A stretch of 64,000 nucleotides of DNA, taken from the NCBI RefSeq assembly GCF_009602465.1, contig NZ_WBKP01000012.1:1-64000 (forward strand). Reading direction: 5' to 3'. This DNA is from Cumulibacter manganitolerans. GTDB lineage: Bacteria > Actinomycetota > Actinomycetes > Mycobacteriales > Antricoccaceae. Shown piece after piece: positions 32,624 through 42,326 of the stretch (position 1 is its first letter; every line of letters starts with the position of its first letter). A model generated the notes under the pieces. The model made no database searches and was not told the origin of the DNA. It saw only the letters and a program-made list of their open reading frames with translations. Made by a program: the position numbers and the translations under genes.

Positions 32624-34879
32624 ATGGGAACGATCCACATCAGCCACTGGGGAACGTTCGAGGCAGAGGTGCAGGACGGGCGCATCACGGCCGTCACGCC
32701 GTACTCCGACGACCCCGACCCGCACCGCATCATCGAGAACGTCGTCGCGATGCAGGACCACCCGACGCGCATCGACCGGCCGTACGTGCGCCGCGGATGG
32801 CTCGAGAACGGCCCGGGGCCCAGCGAGCGGCGCGGCCGCGACGAGTTCGTGCCGGTCTCCTGGGACCGGGCGCTCGACCTCGTCGCCGCCGAGCTGCGCA
32901 GGCTGTACGACGGGCCCGGACCGGAGTCGATCTACGGCGGCTCCTACGGCTGGTCCAGCGCCGGCCGGTTCCACCACGCCCAGTCCCAGCTCAAGCGCTT
33001 CCTGTCCGCGGCCGGCGGCTACGTCGGGCACGTCAACAACTACAGCTTCGGCGCCTCGGCGCCGTTCCTGAGCCACGTCATCGCCACCGAGGCGCAGTGG
33101 GAGACGAAGGCGACGACCTGGAAGTCGATCGCGGAGAACGCCGAGCTCATCGTCGCCATCGGCGGTCTGGCCCGCAAGAACTCCGGCATCGCCAACGGCG
33201 GCGCCATTCGCCATGACCTGGTCGGCTGGCTGGAGCAGGCCCGCGCCAACGGGGCCGAGGTGGTCAGCCTCTCGCCGCTGCGGGACGACCTGCCGGTCGA
33301 GGGCCGCTGGATCCCGGTCCGTCCGGCCTCCGACGGCGCGCTGCTGCAGGCGGTGGCGCACACCCTCGTCGAGGAGGATCTGTACGACAAGGAGTTCATC
33401 GCCAACTACACGGTCGGCTTCGACCTGTTCGCCCAGTCCCTCGAGGGGCGCACCCCCGAGTGGGCGGCGGAGCAGTGCGGCGTGCCGGCCGAGCAGATCC
33501 GCGAGCTGGCCCGCGAGATGGCAGCCAAGCGCACGTTCCTGACGATGTCGTGGTCGATGCAGCGCCAGCAGTACGGCGAGCAGACGATGTGGCTCGGCGT
33601 GTGCGTGGCCGCGTTGCTCGGGCAGATCGGCCTGCCCGGTGGCGGCTTCGGGCACGGCTACGCGAGCACCAACCGGGTCGGGCACAGCGAGATGGCGCTG
33701 GGGCTGCCGACGTTCAGCAAGGGGCACAACCCGGTCCGGACGTTCATCCCCGTCAGCCGCATCTCCGACATGATGCTGCAGCCCGGCCGGCAGTACTCCT
33801 ACGACGGCAAGACCCTCACCTACCCGGACATCAAGCTGGTCTATTGGGCCGGCGGCAACCCGTTCCACGCGCACCCGGACCTGAAGCGGCTGCGCGAAGC
33901 ATTCAGCCGCATCGATACGTTCGTGGTCCAGGAGTCGGCGTGGACGGCCACCGCCCGGCACGCCGACATCGTGCTGCCGGCGACGCTCTCGATCGAGCGC
34001 GACGACCTCGGGGCCGCGGTCACCGAGGACAAGCTGGTCCCGATGCGCCAGATCGTCCAGCCGTACCGGGAGGCGCGCGACGACTACTGGATCCTCCAGC
34101 AGCTCGCGCGCAGGCTCGGCTGCGATGACGCGTTCTCCGAGGGCAAGACGGTCATCGAGTGGCTGCAGTGGATGTACGAGCGGTTCGTCGCGAAGTACGC
34201 CTCCCGGGGGCACGAGCTGCCGACGTGGGAGCAGTTCTGGGGCGGCGGCCGGCCCATCGACGTCCCCAAGTCCGATCCCGACCGCGTGATGCACAGCGAG
34301 TTCCGCGCCGATCCCACCGGCGCGCCGCTGCGCACCCCCAGCAAGCGCATCCACCTGCAGTCGGACGAGATCGAGGAGTTCGGCTACGACGACTGCCCGG
34401 GGACGCCGACCTGGAAGGCACCGGACGACTGGGCCAACCGCGCCGACTATCCGCTCGCCCTGATCGCCAACCAGCCCAAGACGCGGCTGCACAGCCAGCT
34501 CGATCCCGGCGGCTACTCGGCCGCGTCGAAGGTGGCCGGGCGCGAGCCGATCCGCCTGCATCCCGCGGACGCGGCCGAGCGGGGCATCGCCGACGGCGAC
34601 GTCGTGAAGGTCTCGAGCCCGCGCGGCTTCTGCCTGGCGGGGGCCATGCTGTCCGAGGACCTGATGCGCGGTGTCGTACAGCTCTCGACGGGTGCCTGGT
34701 ACGACCCCGACGACGACGGCAACTGCATGCACGGCAACCCCAACGTGCTGCTCAAGGACATCCCGACCTCGAAGTTCAGCCGCGGCAACGTCGGACAGCA
34801 CGTGCAGGTGCAGGTCGAGAAGTACGCCGGCAGCCCGCCGCCGGTGACCGTGTGGTCGCCGCCGCGCATCGCCGGCTAG
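32624..34879 (+). CDS. Molybdopterin-dependent oxidoreductase, BisC/DMSO reductase type
   Basis: 751 residues. GGSYGWSSAGRFHHAQSQLKRFL (residues 105-127) holds the predicted molybdenum ligand Ser112, as in DMSO, TMAO and biotin sulfoxide reductases. No N-terminal Fe-S cluster motif. The bis-MGD binding segments (YWAGGNPFHAHPDLKRL, WTATARHADIVLPAT, and the C-terminal LIANQPKTRLHSQLDPG, FSRGNVGQHVQ) are complete. No Tat signal, so it is cytoplasmic and likely repairs biotin or methionine sulfoxides. The stop codon overlaps that of the convergent MerR gene. Confidence 0.9.
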   Translation: MGTIHISHWGTFEAEVQDGRITAVTPYSDDPDPHRIIENVVAMQDHPTRIDRPYVRRGWLENGPGPSERRGRDEFVPVSWDRALDLVAAELRRLYDGPGPESIYGGSYGWSSAGRFHHAQSQLKRFLSAAGGYVGHVNNYSFGASAPFLSHVIATEAQWETKATTWKSIAENAELIVAIGGLARKNSGIANGGAIRHDLVGWLEQARANGAEVVSLSPLRDDLPVEGRWIPVRPASDGALLQAVAHTLVEEDLYDKEFIANYTVGFDLFAQSLEGRTPEWAAEQCGVPAEQIRELAREMAAKRTFLTMSWSMQRQQYGEQTMWLGVCVAALLGQIGLPGGGFGHGYASTNRVGHSEMALGLPTFSKGHNPVRTFIPVSRISDMMLQPGRQYSYDGKTLTYPDIKLVYWAGGNPFHAHPDLKRLREAFSRIDTFVVQESAWTATARHADIVLPATLSIERDDLGAAVTEDKLVPMRQIVQPYREARDDYWILQQLARRLGCDDAFSEGKTVIEWLQWMYERFVAKYASRGHELPTWEQFWGGGRPIDVPKSDPDRVMHSEFRADPTGAPLRTPSKRIHLQSDEIEEFGYDDCPGTPTWKAPDDWANRADYPLALIANQPKTRLHSQLDPGGYSAASKVAGREPIRLHPADAAERGIADGDVVKVSSPRGFCLAGAMLSEDLMRGVVQLSTGAWYDPDDDGNCMHGNPNVLLKDIPTSKFSRGNVGQHVQVQVEKYAGSPPPVTVWSPPRIAG

Positions 34880-35769
34880 CCGGCTGCGCCGCCTTGCTCG
34901 GCCATCAGCCGGGCAAGCGCCTGGGAGGCCGCGCCGACCTCGTGACCGAGCGGCACGGTGGCGCCGCCCACGACGTCCTGCTGTGCCCCGCCGAGCGCCA
35001 CCAGCGTGCCCGGGTGGGCGTGTTGGACGGCCTGGACGAGCTGCTGCGCGGCCGGCACGTCGCCCGCCCGTGGCACGGCCAGCACGATCGCCGTCGCCTC
35101 GCGGGCGGCGACCGCCGCCACCCAGTCGGCGACCGGCAGGTCGGCGCCGAGGTAGTCGACGGACAGGCCGCGTCGGCGGGCGGCGATCGCGAAGCTCAGC
35201 GCGCCGATCTCGTGCCGCGCGCCCGGCGGCAGGCCGACCAGCACGCGTGGCCCGGTCTCGTGCGCGCCGGCTGCCTCGAAGCCGACGGCCAGCCGGCGCA
35301 TGACGGCGTTGGAGGCGAGATGCTCGCCGGCCACGCTGACCGAGCCGTCTGCCCACGCCTCACCGAGGGCTCTCATCGCCGGAAGGACGTGGGTGTCCGC
35401 GACGGTCTCGTGGCCGCCGGACGCGAACATCTCGTCCAGGCTGGCGGCGAGCCGCTCGGCGTCCAGCGCGGCCGCGGCCGCCAGCAGCTCCGCGCGGAGC
35501 TCGGGCCGGGGGGCCCGCGCGCCGGGCGGCGGATCGACGTCGGGTAGCCGCTCGACGCGGGCTCGCGCCTCGCTGGCCGCGAGACTCGGCGTCCAGCCGG
35601 CAGCGACCAGGCGCGCCATCTCGGCGAGCACGCGTAGGTCGGCCTCGTCGTAGAGCCGGTATCCGCCTTCGCTGCGCGTGGGGGTGACCACGCCGTACCG
35701 GCCCTCCCAGGCCCGCAGGGTGGCGGCGCTGATGCCCAGCCGGGCCGCGGCTGCCTTGATCGTCAGCAC
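34876..35769 (-). CDS. MerR family regulator with B12-binding photosensor domain (CarH/LitR type)
   Basis: 297 residues. MerR-type HTH at residues 1-55 (TIKAAAARLGISAATLRAWEGRYGVVTPTRSEGGYRLYDEADLRVL). A helical cap follows (about 90-170) with Trp139 and the Glu149-His150 pair of the CarH capping region. Then a Rossmann-like B12 domain whose His186 (RHEIG) matches the cobalt-ligand position. In CarH and LitR, adenosylcobalamin bound in the dark is released by light and DNA binding ends. It is divergent from a photolyase-containing operon, its probable target. GTG 35769 is the only start that fits the domain edge. Confidence 0.87.
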   Translation of the reverse strand: MLTIKAAAARLGISAATLRAWEGRYGVVTPTRSEGGYRLYDEADLRVLAEMARLVAAGWTPSLAASEARARVERLPDVDPPPGARAPRPELRAELLAAAAALDAERLAASLDEMFASGGHETVADTHVLPAMRALGEAWADGSVSVAGEHLASNAVMRRLAVGFEAAGAHETGPRVLVGLPPGARHEIGALSFAIAARRRGLSVDYLGADLPVADWVAAVAAREATAIVLAVPRAGDVPAAQQLVQAVQHAHPGTLVALGGAQQDVVGGATVPLGHEVGAASQALARLMAEQGGAAG

Positions 35770-35844
35770 CGCGCCGCCCCCGCTGGGCGGGACCTCGCCG
35801 CGCGGTCCGTCATGTCGTCCGCACCATGGGCTGCGCCTCCAACT

Positions 35845-35894
35845 TTCGACAATCCTTTGACAAAGGTTACACGGACCTTCTACAGTTTGTCGAA
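35845..35894. promoter_or_regulatory. Overlapping divergent promoters and repeated operator of the light operon
   Basis: Three related boxes: TTCGACAA (35845-35852), TTTGACAA (35856-35863) and the inverted TTTGTCGAA (35886-35894). CCTTTGACAAAGG (35854-35866) is a perfect odd palindrome. For the plus operon, TTGACA (35857-35862) and TACAGT (35881-35886) form a promoter with an 18-bp spacer. For the regulator gene, TCGACA (35893-35888) and TAACCT (35869-35864) form one on the minus strand, also with 18 bp. A repressor bound here would cover both. Confidence 0.7.
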
Positions 35895-35986: not shown

Positions 35987-37261
35987 ATGTCCGTTCCCAC
36001 CCGGCCGAGCGTCGCCGTGATCGGCGCCGGAGTGTCCGGCCTCAGCGCCGCCTACCTGCTGCGGCGCAACCACGACGTGACGCTCTTCGAGTCCGACGGC
36101 CGGGTCGGCGGGCACGCCCACACCCACGACGTGACCGGGTCGCGGTCCCAGCCGCTGCACATCGACACCGGCTTCATCGTGATGAACGACAAGACCTACC
36201 CCAACCTGCTGAGGCTGTTCGGTGAGCTCGGCGTGCAGACCCGCCCTGCCGAGATGAGCATGAGCATCTCGTGCCAGGAGTGCGGGCTCTCGTACGCCGG
36301 CGGCAGCGGCGTCGGCGGCATCCTGGCCCAGCCGGGACGGCTGCGGGACTCCCGGTTCCGCAGCCTGCTGGCCCAGGTGCCGCAGTTCCACCGCGACGCG
36401 CGCCGGCTGCTGGCCAGCACCCAGCAGGCGGACCTCGAGCTCACGTGGGGCCAGTTCCTGCAGCGGGGGGCGTACGGTGCCTACTTCGTCGAGCACTTCG
36501 CCATACCGCTGGTCTCCTGCGTGTGGTCGTGCGGGCACCAGGATGCCGAGAGCTATCCGGCACGGCACCTCTTCCAGTTCCTCGAGCACCACGGCATGCT
36601 GCGGATCACCGGCTCCCCCACCTGGCGCACCGTGGTCGGCGGCTCGCGCACCTACGTCTCGCGGATCGTCGAACGGCTCGACGACGTGCGGATCGGCTCC
36701 GCGGTGACGGCGGTGGAACGCCACGACGACGGCGTCGACGTCCGCTCGGCGAGCGGCCTGGAACGGTTCGACCGGGTCGTCGTGGCCACCCACGCCGATC
36801 AGGCCCTGGACCTGCTGGCGGACGCGACTCCGGACGAGAAGACCGACCTGATGGCGATCCGCTACTCCACGAACGAGACGTGGCTGCACACCGACGAGTC
36901 GGTGCTGCCGACGCTGCGGCGAGCGCGGGCCTCCTGGAACTACCGCCTCCCCACGTGCCGCGGCAACACCGACGACGTGACCGTGAGCTACTGGATGAAC
37001 CGCCTGCAGGGACTGGACGACGACGTCGAGCACCTGGTGACGCTCGGCGCCAGCGGACGGGTCGACCCGGAGCGGGTGACGGCGAGAATGACGTACACCC
37101 ACCCGATCTTCACCGCCGCGGCGGTGGCCGCGGCGGAGCGGCTGCGGGACTCCGGCGGCGACCGGCTGGCGTTCGCCGGCGCGCACCTCGGCTGGGGGTT
37201 CCACGAGGACGGCTGCCGCTCCGGGATCGCGGCGGCCGCGAAGTTCGGGGCGACGTGGTGA
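35987..37261 (+). CDS. FAD/NAD(P)-binding oxidoreductase (COG2907-like, amine-oxidase fold)
   Basis: 424 residues. N-terminal dinucleotide fold VIGAGVSGLSAAYLLRR with ESDGRVGGHAHT, then IDTGFIVMNDKTYPN and a C-terminal FAGAHLGWGFHEDGCRSGIAAA that closes the FAD site. Proteins of this type are commonly followed by DUF1365 genes in light- or singlet-oxygen-induced clusters; their substrate is probably a lipid. First gene of the operon. Its stop overlaps the next GTG. ATG 35987 has AGGAGG at 35974-35978. Confidence 0.85.
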   Translation: MSVPTRPSVAVIGAGVSGLSAAYLLRRNHDVTLFESDGRVGGHAHTHDVTGSRSQPLHIDTGFIVMNDKTYPNLLRLFGELGVQTRPAEMSMSISCQECGLSYAGGSGVGGILAQPGRLRDSRFRSLLAQVPQFHRDARRLLASTQQADLELTWGQFLQRGAYGAYFVEHFAIPLVSCVWSCGHQDAESYPARHLFQFLEHHGMLRITGSPTWRTVVGGSRTYVSRIVERLDDVRIGSAVTAVERHDDGVDVRSASGLERFDRVVVATHADQALDLLADATPDEKTDLMAIRYSTNETWLHTDESVLPTLRRARASWNYRLPTCRGNTDDVTVSYWMNRLQGLDDDVEHLVTLGASGRVDPERVTARMTYTHPIFTAAAVAAAERLRDSGGDRLAFAGAHLGWGFHEDGCRSGIAAAAKFGATW

Positions 37262-38010
37262 GAATCGCCAGCGTGCCCGAGGTTCCGGCGCTCGTCGTCG
37301 GCGAGGTGCGGCACACCCGGCGGCAGCCGATCCGCCACGGCTTCCGCAACCGGACCTACCAGTGGCTGGTGGACGTCGAGGACCTGCCGCGGCTGCCCCG
37401 GTGGATCCGGCCGCTGGCCCGCTTCGACGTGGCCGACCACCTCGACGGCGCGCGCCTCGGCGGCGGGATCCGTGGCGACCTCGCCCGCTTCCTGGCCGGC
37501 CGAGGGGTGTTCCTGGCAGCCGACGATCGCGTGCTGATGCTCGCGAACGCCCGGGTCCTCGGCCACGTCTTCGACCCGCTGACCGTGTTCTGGTGCCTGC
37601 GCCCCGACAACTCCGTGGTCGCCATCGTCTTCGAGGTGCACAACACCTACGGCGAGCGGCATGCCTACCTGCTGGACGTCGACGACGCAGGTCGCGCGCA
37701 GCTGCCGAAGACCTTCTATGTCTCGCCGTTCAACGACGTCACCGGCCACTACGACGTCCGCACCCGGTTGACCGATCAGGTCGTCTCGACCACGATCGCG
37801 CTCACCCGCGACGGCGAGGCCGCCTTCAGCGCCTCGACGCGCGGCACGCCGCGCCGAGCCACCGTCCCCGCGCTGCTGCGCGCGGCGCTCACCCACCCGC
37901 TCATGACCCAGCGGACGAGTGCGCTGATCCGCCTGCACGGAATCTGGCTATGGTTGCGACGACTGCCGATCATGCCCCGACCGCCGCACTCCCCGGAGGC
38001 CGTCCGATGA
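37258..38010 (+). CDS. DUF1365 family protein
   Basis: 250 residues. Characteristic DUF1365 segments: HTRRQPIRHGFRNRTYQWLVDVEDL, RVLGHVFDPLTVFWC, VVAIVFEVHNTYGERHAYLL, PKTFYVSPFNDVTGHYD. No signal peptide; a short hydrophobic C-terminus (LWLWLRRLPIM). Biochemical role unestablished; association with FAD oxidoreductases suggests fatty-acid or lipid modification. GTG 37258 overlaps the upstream stop (GTGA), and its TGA overlaps the next ATG. Confidence 0.85.
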   Translation: MRIASVPEVPALVVGEVRHTRRQPIRHGFRNRTYQWLVDVEDLPRLPRWIRPLARFDVADHLDGARLGGGIRGDLARFLAGRGVFLAADDRVLMLANARVLGHVFDPLTVFWCLRPDNSVVAIVFEVHNTYGERHAYLLDVDDAGRAQLPKTFYVSPFNDVTGHYDVRTRLTDQVVSTTIALTRDGEAAFSASTRGTPRRATVPALLRAALTHPLMTQRTSALIRLHGIWLWLRRLPIMPRPPHSPEAVR

Positions 38011-38771
38011 GCACAGTGACACTGCGCGACCGACGCTGCTGGATCGTCGGGGCCTCGAGCGGCATCGGGGCCGCACTCGCCACCGAACTGCGCGCCCGCG
38101 GAGCCCACGTCGCCATCAGCGCTCGCCGCGCGGATCGGCTCGAGGGGGTGTCGCGAGGGGACATGGTCACCGTTCCCTGCGACGTCACCGATCCCGCGGC
38201 GGTCGCCACGGCGGCGGCGAGCGTGGAGGCGCAGCTCGGTGGGATCGACCTGGTGGTCTGGAGTGCCGGGATGTGGGGGCAGCTGGACGCCCTGCAGTGG
38301 GACCGCGAGTCGTTCGCCGAGCACGTGGAGGTCAACCTCCTCGGCCTGAACAACGTGCTCGCCGCGGTGGTGCCGCAGATGGTGGCCCGCGGCGCCGGCC
38401 AGATCGTCGGAATCGCCTCGGTCGCCGGCTACCGCGGCCTGCCCGGCGCCGAGGCGTACGGCGCGACGAAGGCGGCCCAGCTGGTCCTGCTGGAGTCGCT
38501 GCGCGCCTCCTTGGCGAAGCGCAACGTCGCCGTCACGACCGTCGCGCCGGGCTTCGTGCGCACCGAGATGACGGAGTCCAACTCCTTCCCGATGCCGTTC
38601 ATCATCGATCCCGACGAGGCGGCCCGCGCGATCGCCGACGGGCTCGAGAAGGGGCGGCACGAGATCGTCTTCCCGCTGCCGATGGCGGTGCTGATGAAGG
38701 TGGCCAGGCTGCTGCCGCAGCGCGCATGGGACGCGATCGCGGCCCGCTTCGCCGCAGGGAGGCGTCGATGA
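38007..38771 (+). CDS. Short-chain dehydrogenase/reductase of the light operon
   Basis: 254 residues. Cofactor motif IVGASSGIGAAL with Arg-rich ISARRADR after strand 2 (suggests NADP). Active site Ser in GIASVAG and YGATK with Tyr and Lys. PGFVRTEM is typical for lipid-type SDRs. C-terminal hydrophobic segment VFPLPMAVLMKVARLLP may touch the membrane. Coupled to both neighbours by ATGA overlaps. Confidence 0.87.
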   Translation: MSTVTLRDRRCWIVGASSGIGAALATELRARGAHVAISARRADRLEGVSRGDMVTVPCDVTDPAAVATAAASVEAQLGGIDLVVWSAGMWGQLDALQWDRESFAEHVEVNLLGLNNVLAAVVPQMVARGAGQIVGIASVAGYRGLPGAEAYGATKAAQLVLLESLRASLAKRNVAVTTVAPGFVRTEMTESNSFPMPFIIDPDEAARAIADGLEKGRHEIVFPLPMAVLMKVARLLPQRAWDAIAARFAAGRRR

Positions 38772-40111
38772 GCACCGCCCTGATGTGGTTTCGCCGGGAC
38801 CTGCGCCTGAGTGATCACCCCGCGCTGCAGGCCGCGGCCGAGGTGGCCGGCGACGTCCTGCCGTTGTTCGTGCGCGATCCGGCGCTCACCTCCTCCGGCG
38901 GCGCGCGTACCGCCCGGCTCGAGGCGTCCCTGGGCGCGCTGCGCGGCGGCACCGACGACGCGCTGGTGATCCGGACCGGCGACCCGTCGCTCATCGTCCC
39001 GCAGGTCGCCGCCGAGGTGGGCGCCGAGCGGGTGTTCATCTCCGCGGAGACCACGCCGTACGGCCGCCGCCGCGATTGCGCGGTGCACCGAGCGCTCGCG
39101 GCGGACGGTCGCGAGCTGGTCGCCGTCGGCAGCCCGTACGCGGTCACCCCCGGCCGGGTGCGCAACGGCGACGACGGGCCGTACCGGGTCTTCACCGCCT
39201 TCCGGAAGGCGTGGTCCCGGCACGGCTGGCCGCAGCCTGCCGGCGACGCCCGACCCAGCTGGCGCACCGGGCTCGCCAGCGAGCCGCTGGACCCGATCGA
39301 CGGCGTGGACGCCGGCGAGCGGGCGGCGTTGCGGCGCTGGCGCGAGTTCCTGGACACCGACCTGGCCTCCTACGACGAGGGACGGGACCGCCCCGACCTG
39401 CACGCGACGAGCCGGATGTCGGCCGCCCTCAAGTACGGCGAGATCCATCCGCGCACGCTGCTGGCCGACCTCGCCGACCTACGCGGCGAGCATCGCGAGG
39501 CCACCGACCGCTACGTCACCGAGCTGGCGTGGCGGGAGTTCTACGCGGACGTGCTGTTCCACGACCCCGGCTCCGCGTGGCGCGACTGGCGGCCGGAGCT
39601 GCGCAGTATCCGCTACGACCACGACGACGCGCTGGTCGAGGCGTGGCGCACGGGCCGCACCGGCTATCCGTTCGTCGACGCCGGCATGCGCCAGCTGCTG
39701 GCCGAGGGGTGGATGCACAACCGGCTGCGGATGGTGACGGCGAGCTTCCTCGTGAAGGACCTGCACGTGTGGTGGCCGGTGGGGGCCCGCTACTTCCTGC
39801 AGCACCTGCTGGACGGTGATCTCGCCTCGAACAACCACGGGTGGCAGTGGGTGGCCGGTACCGGCACCGATGCGGCGCCGTACTTCCGCGTCTTCAACCC
39901 GGTGCTGCAGGGCCAGCGCTTCGATCCGGACGGCGAGTACGTCCGGCGCTGGGTGCCCGAGCTCAGGCACCTCAAGGGCGCCGACGCGCATGAGCCGTGG
40001 CGTCACGACGACGGCTACCGCGACGGCTACCCCCAGCGCGTCGTCGACCACGCCGAGGAGCGGCGGGAGGCCCTGCAGCGCCTCGACGAGCTCAAGGCGC
40101 GGCGCCCTTGA
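38768..40111 (+). CDS. phr: Deoxyribodipyrimidine photolyase (CPD class I type)
   Basis: 447 residues. N-terminal antenna-binding Rossmann domain (MWFRRDLRLSDHPAL) and a C-terminal FAD domain (SRMSAALKYGEIHPRTL, ELAWREFYADVL, TGYPFVDAGMRQLLAEGWMHNRLRMVTASFLVKDL, NNHGWQWVAGTGTDAAPYFR). Repairs cyclobutane pyrimidine dimers with blue light. Co-transcribed behind the FAD, DUF1365 and SDR genes, in line with light induction. ATG overlaps the SDR stop. Confidence 0.94.
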   Translation: MSTALMWFRRDLRLSDHPALQAAAEVAGDVLPLFVRDPALTSSGGARTARLEASLGALRGGTDDALVIRTGDPSLIVPQVAAEVGAERVFISAETTPYGRRRDCAVHRALAADGRELVAVGSPYAVTPGRVRNGDDGPYRVFTAFRKAWSRHGWPQPAGDARPSWRTGLASEPLDPIDGVDAGERAALRRWREFLDTDLASYDEGRDRPDLHATSRMSAALKYGEIHPRTLLADLADLRGEHREATDRYVTELAWREFYADVLFHDPGSAWRDWRPELRSIRYDHDDALVEAWRTGRTGYPFVDAGMRQLLAEGWMHNRLRMVTASFLVKDLHVWWPVGARYFLQHLLDGDLASNNHGWQWVAGTGTDAAPYFRVFNPVLQGQRFDPDGEYVRRWVPELRHLKGADAHEPWRHDDGYRDGYPQRVVDHAEERREALQRLDELKARRP

Positions 40112-40833
40112 TCTCGCCGATCGCCGAGCTCCGCCGCTTCATCGCGGCGGCGCTCATCGTGCCGGTACGGCCCCGGCCGCCGGCGGTCGGACGCCGCGAG
40201 CTGACCCGCCGCCGCGTGATCGCCGGGCTGACCATCGTCGCCGGGGCCGTCCTGCTGACCCTCACGGTCCGCACCGAGCCCGGCAGCACCGCCTTCTTCG
40301 TCCTCGGGCTGGTGCTCGCCGCGGTGTGGCTGGTCGGCGCGGTGGCGTCGGGACCGCTGCGGCTGGGTACCGCGAGAACGCGTGCGGGCGGCCGGTCGCT
40401 CGCCGTCGTGCAGTCGCTGGCGCTGGCCGCCGCGCTGATCGCGCTGTTCCTGGCCGGCGCACTCGTCGTCGCGCAGCTGCCCGGGCTGCGCAACCCGGTG
40501 CTGGCGCTGCTCGAGCACAACACCGGCCCGCAGATCCTCGTCGTTCTGGTGACCGTCGTCAACGGGATCGCCGAAGAGGTGTTCTTCCGCGGCGCGCTCT
40601 ACTCCGCAATCGGCGCCAGCGTCCCGGCCGTGGTGATCACGACGCTGCTCTACGGGCTGACCACCGTGGGCAGCGGGGTCCCGCTGCTGTCGCTCGCCGC
40701 GGTCATGCTCGGCGTGGTGACCGCCCTGCAGCGGCGGGTCACCGGAGGCGTGCTCGGCCCCATCATCACGCACGTGACCTGGTCGGTCGCGATGCTGCTG
40801 CTCCTGCCCCTAGTACTCGATCTCGCGAGGTGA
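40108..40833 (+). CDS. CPBP (Abi/CaaX-type) intramembrane protease
   Basis: 241 residues, about six membrane helices. The catalytic CPBP motifs are Glu156-Glu157 and Arg161 (NGIAEEVFFRGALYS) and a C-terminal His222 (IITHVTW). Family members cleave within membranes or act in bacteriocin immunity. TTG 40108 is the likely start: it overlaps the photolyase stop as TTGA, the same coupling as the other junctions. A CPBP gene in a photolyase operon is unexpected. Confidence 0.82.
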   Translation: MISPIAELRRFIAAALIVPVRPRPPAVGRRELTRRRVIAGLTIVAGAVLLTLTVRTEPGSTAFFVLGLVLAAVWLVGAVASGPLRLGTARTRAGGRSLAVVQSLALAAALIALFLAGALVVAQLPGLRNPVLALLEHNTGPQILVVLVTVVNGIAEEVFFRGALYSAIGASVPAVVITTLLYGLTTVGSGVPLLSLAAVMLGVVTALQRRVTGGVLGPIITHVTWSVAMLLLLPLVLDLAR

Positions 40834-40838
40834 GGCGA

Positions 40839-42326
40839 ATGTCCCACGAGTCCACGCACCACGGCTCCCCCGATCCGGCGTCGTCGGCGGCCGCTCCTCG
40901 AGGCGGCCGCACGGCGCTCGTGACGGGCGCCACCGGCTACATCGGTGGCGCGCTGATACCGGTCCTCCTCGCCGACGGCTTCACCGTGCGAGTGCTCACG
41001 CGGGACGCGCACCGCCTGGACGGCACTGAGTGGCAGCGCCAGGTGGAGGTCGTCGAGGGCGACGGGGGGTCCGCCGCGGACCTCGATCGCGCGCTCGACG
41101 GCGTCGACGTGGCGTACTACCTCATCCACTCGATGGGCTCCAGCGAGGACTTCGTCGCCCGCGACCGCGCGCTGGCCACTGCATTCGCCGCCGCGGCCGA
41201 CAGGGCCGGGGTCGGGCGCATCGTCTACCTCGGCGGCATCCATCCGCACGACGAGGAGCTGTCCGCGCACCTGGCGTCCCGTGCGGAGGTCGGTCGCATC
41301 CTGCTCGGCTCGAGCGTCCCGACGGCTGTCCTTCAGGCGGCCGTGATCCTCGGAACCGGTTCCGCGTCGTTCGACATGCTGCGCCACCTGGCGTCGAGAC
41401 TGCCGGTGATGGTGGCACCGCGGTGGCTGCGCAACCGCGTCCAGCCGATCGCGATCGCCGACGTCGTGCGCTATCTGCGCGGTGCGGCGGACCTGCCGGC
41501 CGAGGTCAACCGGACCTTCGACATCGGCGGTCCCGACGTGCTGACGTACCGCGAGATGCTCGTGCGCTACGCGCGCCTGACCGGGCACGGGCGCCGGCTG
41601 ATCGTCACGGTCCCGGTGCTCACCCCGCGGCTGGCGAGCCGCTGGATCGGCCTGGTGACCCCGCTGAACGTCCCGCTGGCCAGGGCGCTCATCGACAGCC
41701 TGGTGCACGAGGTGGTCTGTTCCGAGGACGACATCCGCGGCTACGTGCCGGACCCCGCGGGTGGTCTGGCGGGCTTCGACGAGGCGGTCGGCTCGACCCT
41801 GGGAAGCACCCCGACGGACGGCGGTCCCCGCAACCTGGCACTCACCTCGGCCGCGACGGTCGCGGCCGCCGCGGTCGGCTCGCTCGCCACCACCCCGGGT
41901 TCGCGCTGGTACCGGTCCCTGGACCTGCCGTCGTGGCAGCCGCCGACCATCGCGTTCCCGGTGGTGTGGACGGCGCTGTACGCCGACATCGCCGCCACGT
42001 CCGCGGTCGTGCTGACCGACCTGGAACGGCGGGAGAAGGCCTCCGAGGCAGCCGCGTACAAGCGGGCGCTGTGGGCGAACCTCGCGCTGAACGCGGGCTG
42101 GAGCGTGCTGTTCTGGCGGGTGCGCCGGCCGTGGCTGGCTGCGCTGGAGAGCGCCGTGCTCACCGCGAGCTCGGCCGATCTCGCCCGCCGGGCGGCCGCC
42201 TCGAGCCCGCAGCGCGGCGCCCGGTTGGCGCCCTACGCGGCGTGGACCGGTTTCGCCACCGCGCTGAGCACGGCGATCGCGCGCCGCAACCGACCCGCTG
42301 CGCTCAGGGGGCGCCGGAGTCGGTGA
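40839..42326 (+). CDS. Fusion of NmrA-like NAD(P)-binding domain and TspO/MBR domain
   Basis: 495 residues. Residues ~25-320 form an atypical SDR/NmrA domain (ALVTGATGYIGGALIPVLL, YYLIHSMGSSEDF, VNRTFDIGGPDVLTYREMLVRYARLTG). The C-terminal ~165 form a TspO domain with about five helices (WYRSLDLPSWQPPTIAFPVVWTALY, NLALNAGWSVLFWRVRRPWLA). TspO proteins bind porphyrins and, in phototrophs, help control light and oxygen responses. It starts five bp after the CPBP stop and closes the operon. The last 23 bp overlap the convergent DUF2382 gene. Confidence 0.85.
   Translation: MSHESTHHGSPDPASSAAAPRGGRTALVTGATGYIGGALIPVLLADGFTVRVLTRDAHRLDGTEWQRQVEVVEGDGGSAADLDRALDGVDVAYYLIHSMGSSEDFVARDRALATAFAAAADRAGVGRIVYLGGIHPHDEELSAHLASRAEVGRILLGSSVPTAVLQAAVILGTGSASFDMLRHLASRLPVMVAPRWLRNRVQPIAIADVVRYLRGAADLPAEVNRTFDIGGPDVLTYREMLVRYARLTGHGRRLIVTVPVLTPRLASRWIGLVTPLNVPLARALIDSLVHEVVCSEDDIRGYVPDPAGGLAGFDEAVGSTLGSTPTDGGPRNLALTSAATVAAAAVGSLATTPGSRWYRSLDLPSWQPPTIAFPVVWTALYADIAATSAVVLTDLERREKASEAAAYKRALWANLALNAGWSVLFWRVRRPWLAALESAVLTASSADLARRAAASSPQRGARLAPYAAWTGFATALSTAIARRNRPAALRGRRSR

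Follow-up and report, generated by a model that had tools for sequence, protein, structure and literature searches.

A tandem 11-bp repeat array beside a CarH/LitR-family gene of Cumulibacter manganitolerans as a probable operator of a divergent flavoenzyme-photolyase operon

Results

A repeat array lies over the predicted promoter of the divergent operon

The array of direct repeats at positions 35842-35885 of the window, which is the whole 64,000-nucleotide stretch of DNA analysed here, very probably represents a CarH/LitR operator controlling an operon divergent from a litR/carH-like gene (rough probability 0.85, judged from sequence). It would add another example to the published operator type of CarH/LitR B12 photoreceptors. 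The array is very probably the docking site of the B12 light sensor predicted from the neighbouring gene. The flavoenzyme-DUF1365-SDR-photolyase operon on the divergent side is likely to be under light-controlled repression, because the predicted CarH/LitR oligomer site lies over the promoter of that operon.

The CarH proteins of Thermus and Bacillus are described as binding tandem 11-bp nnnnTnnACAn repeats that overlap a -35 or -10 element; the Thermus operator has three such units, and the Bacillus operators have either four or three joined by a pseudorepeat (PMC9304148). Reading the plus strand in 11-bp steps from 35842 gave ACTTTCGACAA, TCCTTTGACAA, AGGTTACACGG, ACCTTCTACAG and TTTGTCGAAGG. 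The published motif was matched exactly by the first unit (DR1, 35842-35852), the second (DR2, 35853-35863) and the fourth (DR4, 35875-35885), and the third (dr3, 35864-35874) is a degenerate unit that departs from it by one base (TnnACG). DR1-DR2-dr3-DR4 therefore comprises at least three tandem 11-bp units when degenerate ones are allowed, as in known CarH operators. The G+C content falls to 42% in the 60 bases around the array, compared with 72% across the window.

The promoter of the divergent operon, TTGACA-N18-TACAGT (35857-35886, plus strand), is well supported by the sequence. Its -35 element (35857-35862) coincides with the core of DR2, and its -10 element (35881-35886) starts two bases inside the core of DR4, so that both elements overlap the array. 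It matches the consensus at 10 of 12 positions, its spacing is kept in relatives, and its predicted start lies at about 35893. A promoter search returned one such hit in 3 kb, as against 0.0 ± 0.2 in shuffled sequence. Three of the four tandem units were recovered in 0 of 2000 dinucleotide-preserving shuffles of the 66-bp core, and a 10/12 promoter on either strand in 4 of 2000. A minus-strand pair of at least 8/12 appeared in 131 of 2000. By these counts the array exceeds chance and so does the plus promoter, but the minus promoter does not.

A sequence-only reading had placed here an operator of two direct boxes, TTCGACAA (35845-35852) and TTTGACAA (35856-35863), and one inverted box, TTTGTCGAA (35886-35894, minus strand), bound by a MerR-B12 oligomer. 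All three boxes and the plus promoter were found as described, and an oligomer site over the promoter of the divergent operon agrees with the sequence evidence. However, dr3 and DR4 had been overlooked and the third box falls outside the 11-bp register. Since the fixed register includes these further units, the operator is better described as a direct-repeat array. The inverted box did not hold as an operator part: the conserved element is the direct repeat, and TTGTCnAA occurred in 2 of 60 upstream regions of litR-like genes, the window's included. The arrangement with two direct boxes and an inverted one was thus rejected, inverted TnnACA having no strongly preferred position near arrays (no single offset accounted for more than 4 of the 59 arrays, and the window's offset accounted for 2). 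A classic MerR spacer-twisting dyad was likewise discarded, as the spacer is 18 bp and the symmetry is limited to the outer 8 bp.

The 3.9 Mb genome was searched with a pattern of four TnnACA/R units at 11-bp pitch, allowing up to three mismatches. The only exact match was the array at 35842-35885. The other matches on either strand carried three mismatches each, one lying elsewhere and one being the array shifted by one unit. A looser two-unit pattern again matched the array alone. Thus, apart from that single three-mismatch place, neither pattern indicated a wider regulon at the thresholds used. Another pattern search returned three other places with two to three mismatches, versus two for a reversed control pattern.

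The neighbouring gene encodes a CarH/LitR-family protein

The litR/carH-like gene (34876-35769, minus strand; GTG start predicted from alignment) encodes a predicted B12 photoreceptor of the CarH/LitR family, as identified from its sequence. A MerR-type HTH (PF13411), a helix-bundle B12-binding domain (B12-binding_2, PF02607) and a Rossmann B12-binding domain (PF02310) all scored above the Pfam cut-offs, and the best PDB matches were Thermus CarH/LitR (E ~1e-29). In the alignment, the equivalents of Thermus CarH Trp131, Glu141/His142 and His177 are kept as W140, E150-H151 and H187, which provide the Wx9EH motif of the adenosyl pocket and the lower axial His. The protein reached 136.1 bits against the NCBIfam CarH equivalog NF052513, far under its 400-bit cut-off, and is therefore named CarH/LitR-family here and not assigned to CarH. 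No second CarH-like gene was found in the genome, where the three other matches were to the HTH only. A plasmid search returned only distant relatives, each of which shared less than 60% identity with the query and covered less than 80% of its length.

The residue corresponding to Thermus CarH His132, the upper cobalt ligand of the light state, is Ala141. Among 60 actinomycete proteins, the residue after the pocket Trp was not His in 59, the window's included; one of the 60 (L082) is a broken protein that aligns badly, and the peptide pattern behind one of the searches favours Ala at this position, which touches at most six of the 60. The remaining AdoCbl pocket is mostly conserved in these proteins. 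The actinomycete proteins therefore form a natural His132-less group, and no statement of this loss for actinomycetes was found in the accessible open literature. A His132-type residue is published as present in many, not all, CarH homologues (PMC9304148), so it does not define the CarH/LitR family. A Thermus H132A variant is reported to be largely tetrameric in the light (PMC10442372), and CtMerR, with Arg at this position, is reported still to monomerise (PMC11796333). The substitution by Ala counts against light release by LitR, an objection that CtMerR tempers.

The divergent operon may have a photoprotective role

The first gene of the divergent operon (35987-37261, plus strand) encodes an FAD-dependent amine-oxidase-family enzyme identified by Pfam, with AGGAGG preceding its ATG. 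It is followed on the same strand by genes for a DUF1365 protein of the UfaO family (37261-38010, Pfam; start approximate), an SDR, that is, a short-chain dehydrogenase-like ORF (about 38010-38690, translation read by eye), and a DNA photolyase (38690-40111, domain scan). Farther along the plus strand lie genes for a CAAX-protease-like protein and then an NmrA/TspO-like protein. The latter (40830-42326), in which NmrA-like and TspO domains are fused, closes the putative light operon. On the other side, a molybdopterin S/N-oxide reductase gene of the bisC/TorA type (32624-34879) is convergent with litR.

UfaO has a DUF1365 domain, and the furan fatty acid pathway includes an NAD/FAD enzyme, UfaD (PMC7380195). 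No furan fatty acid methylase was seen among these operon genes; CMAS-family genes occur elsewhere in the genome. Neither a crt gene among the eight genes examined nor an ECF sigma factor gene like that of LitS was found, the latter among litR, six domain-scanned neighbours and the SDR-like ORF. The operon may serve in protection against light damage.

The 11-bp pitch recurs upstream of actinomycete litR genes

The comparison took in as much as 700 bp of upstream sequence from each of 60 litR-like genes, namely the window's own locus, ten near relatives, 21 loci from a class search and 28 from a phylum search. These loci are not independent, as four genomes contributed two loci each and some genera were shared. 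Exact TnnACA pairs at 11-bp pitch directed away from litR were present in 28 of the 60 (the window, 7/10 near relatives, 9/21 class and 11/28 phylum loci), versus 3/60 directed toward litR. Each of twelve other pitches between 7 and 19 was seen in 0-3 of the 60 loci, and the 11-bp pitch occurred once within litR genes. Graded scoring yielded 59 arrays in 38 loci, with a unit consensus of about AC(C/T)TTnGACAA. The 22 loci without an array count against the operator reading, as does the shortfall against NF052513.

A further search had returned 44 loci, of which six (L015-L020) entered the set of 60. Of the 38 left out, 33 belonged to other phyla or lacked an assignment, and five (L053-L057) were HTH-only matches with no high-scoring array at the match. 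Among the 33, L023, L026, L027, L029, L052 and L058 carried arrays of at least 11/12 immediately upstream of the match; array matches in L037 and L050, far from the gene match, were taken as chance.

A TAnnnT element 17 or 18 bp past a unit core was found in 16 of the 38 array-bearing loci of the set of 60, as against none at control spacings of 13/14 bp and one at 21/22 bp. This recurrence indicates that the rightward promoter is part of a recurrent architecture. The arrays point at the divergent gene, often the same flavoenzyme as in the window. Other divergent genes encode photolyase, a NUDIX-polyprenyl synthase (its NUDIX part IPP-isomerase-like), polyprenyl synthase, SDR, DUF4397 and other amine-oxidase-family proteins; this survey rests on 32 extracted ORFs, some of them probably not real genes, of which seven were domain-scanned. 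In L086, L088 and L091 the product downstream of the array looks secreted, with DUF4397 in the scanned L086 and the other two read as alike. Such proteins would be unexpected targets for a light regulator. In L012 and L014-L018 the array lies ~435-510 bp from litR, leaving room for an ORF possibly cotranscribed with litR (SRPBCC-like by reading in L014).

Two or three arrays precede litR in 17 of the 38 array loci (L018, L019, L066-L069, L073, L077, L082, L083, L086, L088, L090-L092, L095 and L109), compared with one in the window. Their spacing is mostly 23-76 bp, reaching 134 bp in L090, and every array was scored on the strand away from litR. A TAnnnT element facing litR 10-12 bp beyond the first unit was found in 14 of the 38; it is missing at the window locus.

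Control of litR and alternative readings

Control of litR by the array is less well supported. A leftward pair, TCGACA (35893-35888), 18 bp and TAACCT (35869-35864), is present on the minus strand as the earlier reading had proposed, with a predicted start at about 35857. It scores 8/12, a level no better than chance given the shuffle counts above. Its -35 is the inverted box, and its -10 is the repeat half AGGTTA read on the reverse strand. The two promoters had been called face-to-face, which is wrong: their predicted starts diverge, and the elements of the two promoters interleave in a back-to-back arrangement that would keep RNA polymerase from occupying both. The array carries one strong promoter and one weak candidate. 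Autoregulation is in doubt because the minus promoter is weak and the recurrent litR-ward -10 is absent here; it is still plausible, at about even odds, by analogy with Sorangium CarH, for which one site is proposed to serve two overlapping divergent promoters (PMC9304148).

The array may instead govern only the rightward operon. In that case litR would be transcribed from a different promoter, perhaps a constitutive one, and chance would account for the minus promoter and its inverted box. The shuffle frequency of the minus pair, the origin of TAACCT in the repeat's own half AnnTTA, the rarity of the inverted box among the 60 loci and the orientation of strict pairs toward the divergent gene all favour this reading. 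Nevertheless, the intergenic region yielded nothing better for litR, TCGACA-N18-TAACCT being the sole litR-ward candidate of at least 8/12. In addition, the relatives with several arrays or a litR-ward -10 beside the array suggest that litR is commonly controlled, and the Sorangium precedent points the same way. Confinement to the operon is accordingly a serious contender that we place somewhat below an even chance. LitR could also be a light-dependent activator and not a dark repressor; the host is an actinomycete, and Streptomyces LitR is said to promote litS transcription in the light (PMC12705666). However, the site spans both elements of a near-consensus promoter, which should need no activator, and the other studied CarH/LitR proteins are repressors, which makes activation unlikely. 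Together with the inverted box, DR1 makes up a perfect inverted repeat of 8 bp, which could suggest the dyad of a different regulator or a chance cluster of boxes. That this dyad is not conserved, while the 11-bp pitch recurs across the phylum and the tandem units were never recovered in shuffles, renders such an origin highly improbable.

Discussion

The proposed mechanism of dark repression by LitR builds on features shown by the sequence: the repeat units, the rightward promoter, the family to which the protein belongs and the conserved 11-bp pitch. In the dark, an oligomer of AdoCbl-bound LitR would read DR1-DR2-dr3-DR4 and cover the rightward -35 within DR2 and the -10 overlapping DR4, thereby excluding RNA polymerase from the operon. 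In the light, breakage of the Co-C bond of AdoCbl would take the oligomer off the DNA, and the protective operon would be expressed. Binding, dark repression and light release are all inferred properties of LitR. The same bound oligomer would probably repress litR too, because the candidate leftward promoter falls within the same 30 bp; this is the weakly supported step.

Several known systems offer comparison. The operators of Bacillus megaterium CarH likewise consist of either four 11-bp units in tandem or three DRs with a pseudorepeat, and overlap a -35 or -10 element (PMC9304148), whereas the window array belongs to a high-G+C actinomycete and would control a flavoenzyme/DUF1365/photolyase operon. 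Thermus thermophilus CarH and its operator (PDB 5c8d-f) share with the window the protein family, the AdoCbl pocket residues, the TnnACA units and a -35 lying in one unit, but the window has four units instead of three and Ala in place of the light-state ligand His132. The Sorangium cellulosum site PcrtSc1 is proposed to silence divergent promoters that overlap, including the one of the carH transcription unit; it has one DR and two drs and serves carotenoid genes, in contrast to three DRs and one dr here (PMC9304148). Streptomyces LitR is also a B12-dependent MerR light regulator of an actinomycete, yet its output passes through the sigma factor LitS (PMC12705666), and the eight window genes examined included no such factor.

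A broader proposal is that the CarH/LitR photoreceptors of actinomycetes mostly lack His132 by nature and let go of DNA without needing the bis-His switch of Thermus CarH. Under the same proposal the window would be a compact case, its single four-unit array serving two divergent promoters where many relatives use two or three arrays. This combined view is tentative and falls just short of an even bet. With these findings the 11-bp operator code of CarH reaches a broad range of litR loci in actinomycetes (28 of 60 in the strict test), and the window gives an exact, testable site in which a fixed lattice carries both promoter elements. Moreover, a large natural set of His132-less B12 photoreceptors would be useful for the disputed role of His132 in light release.
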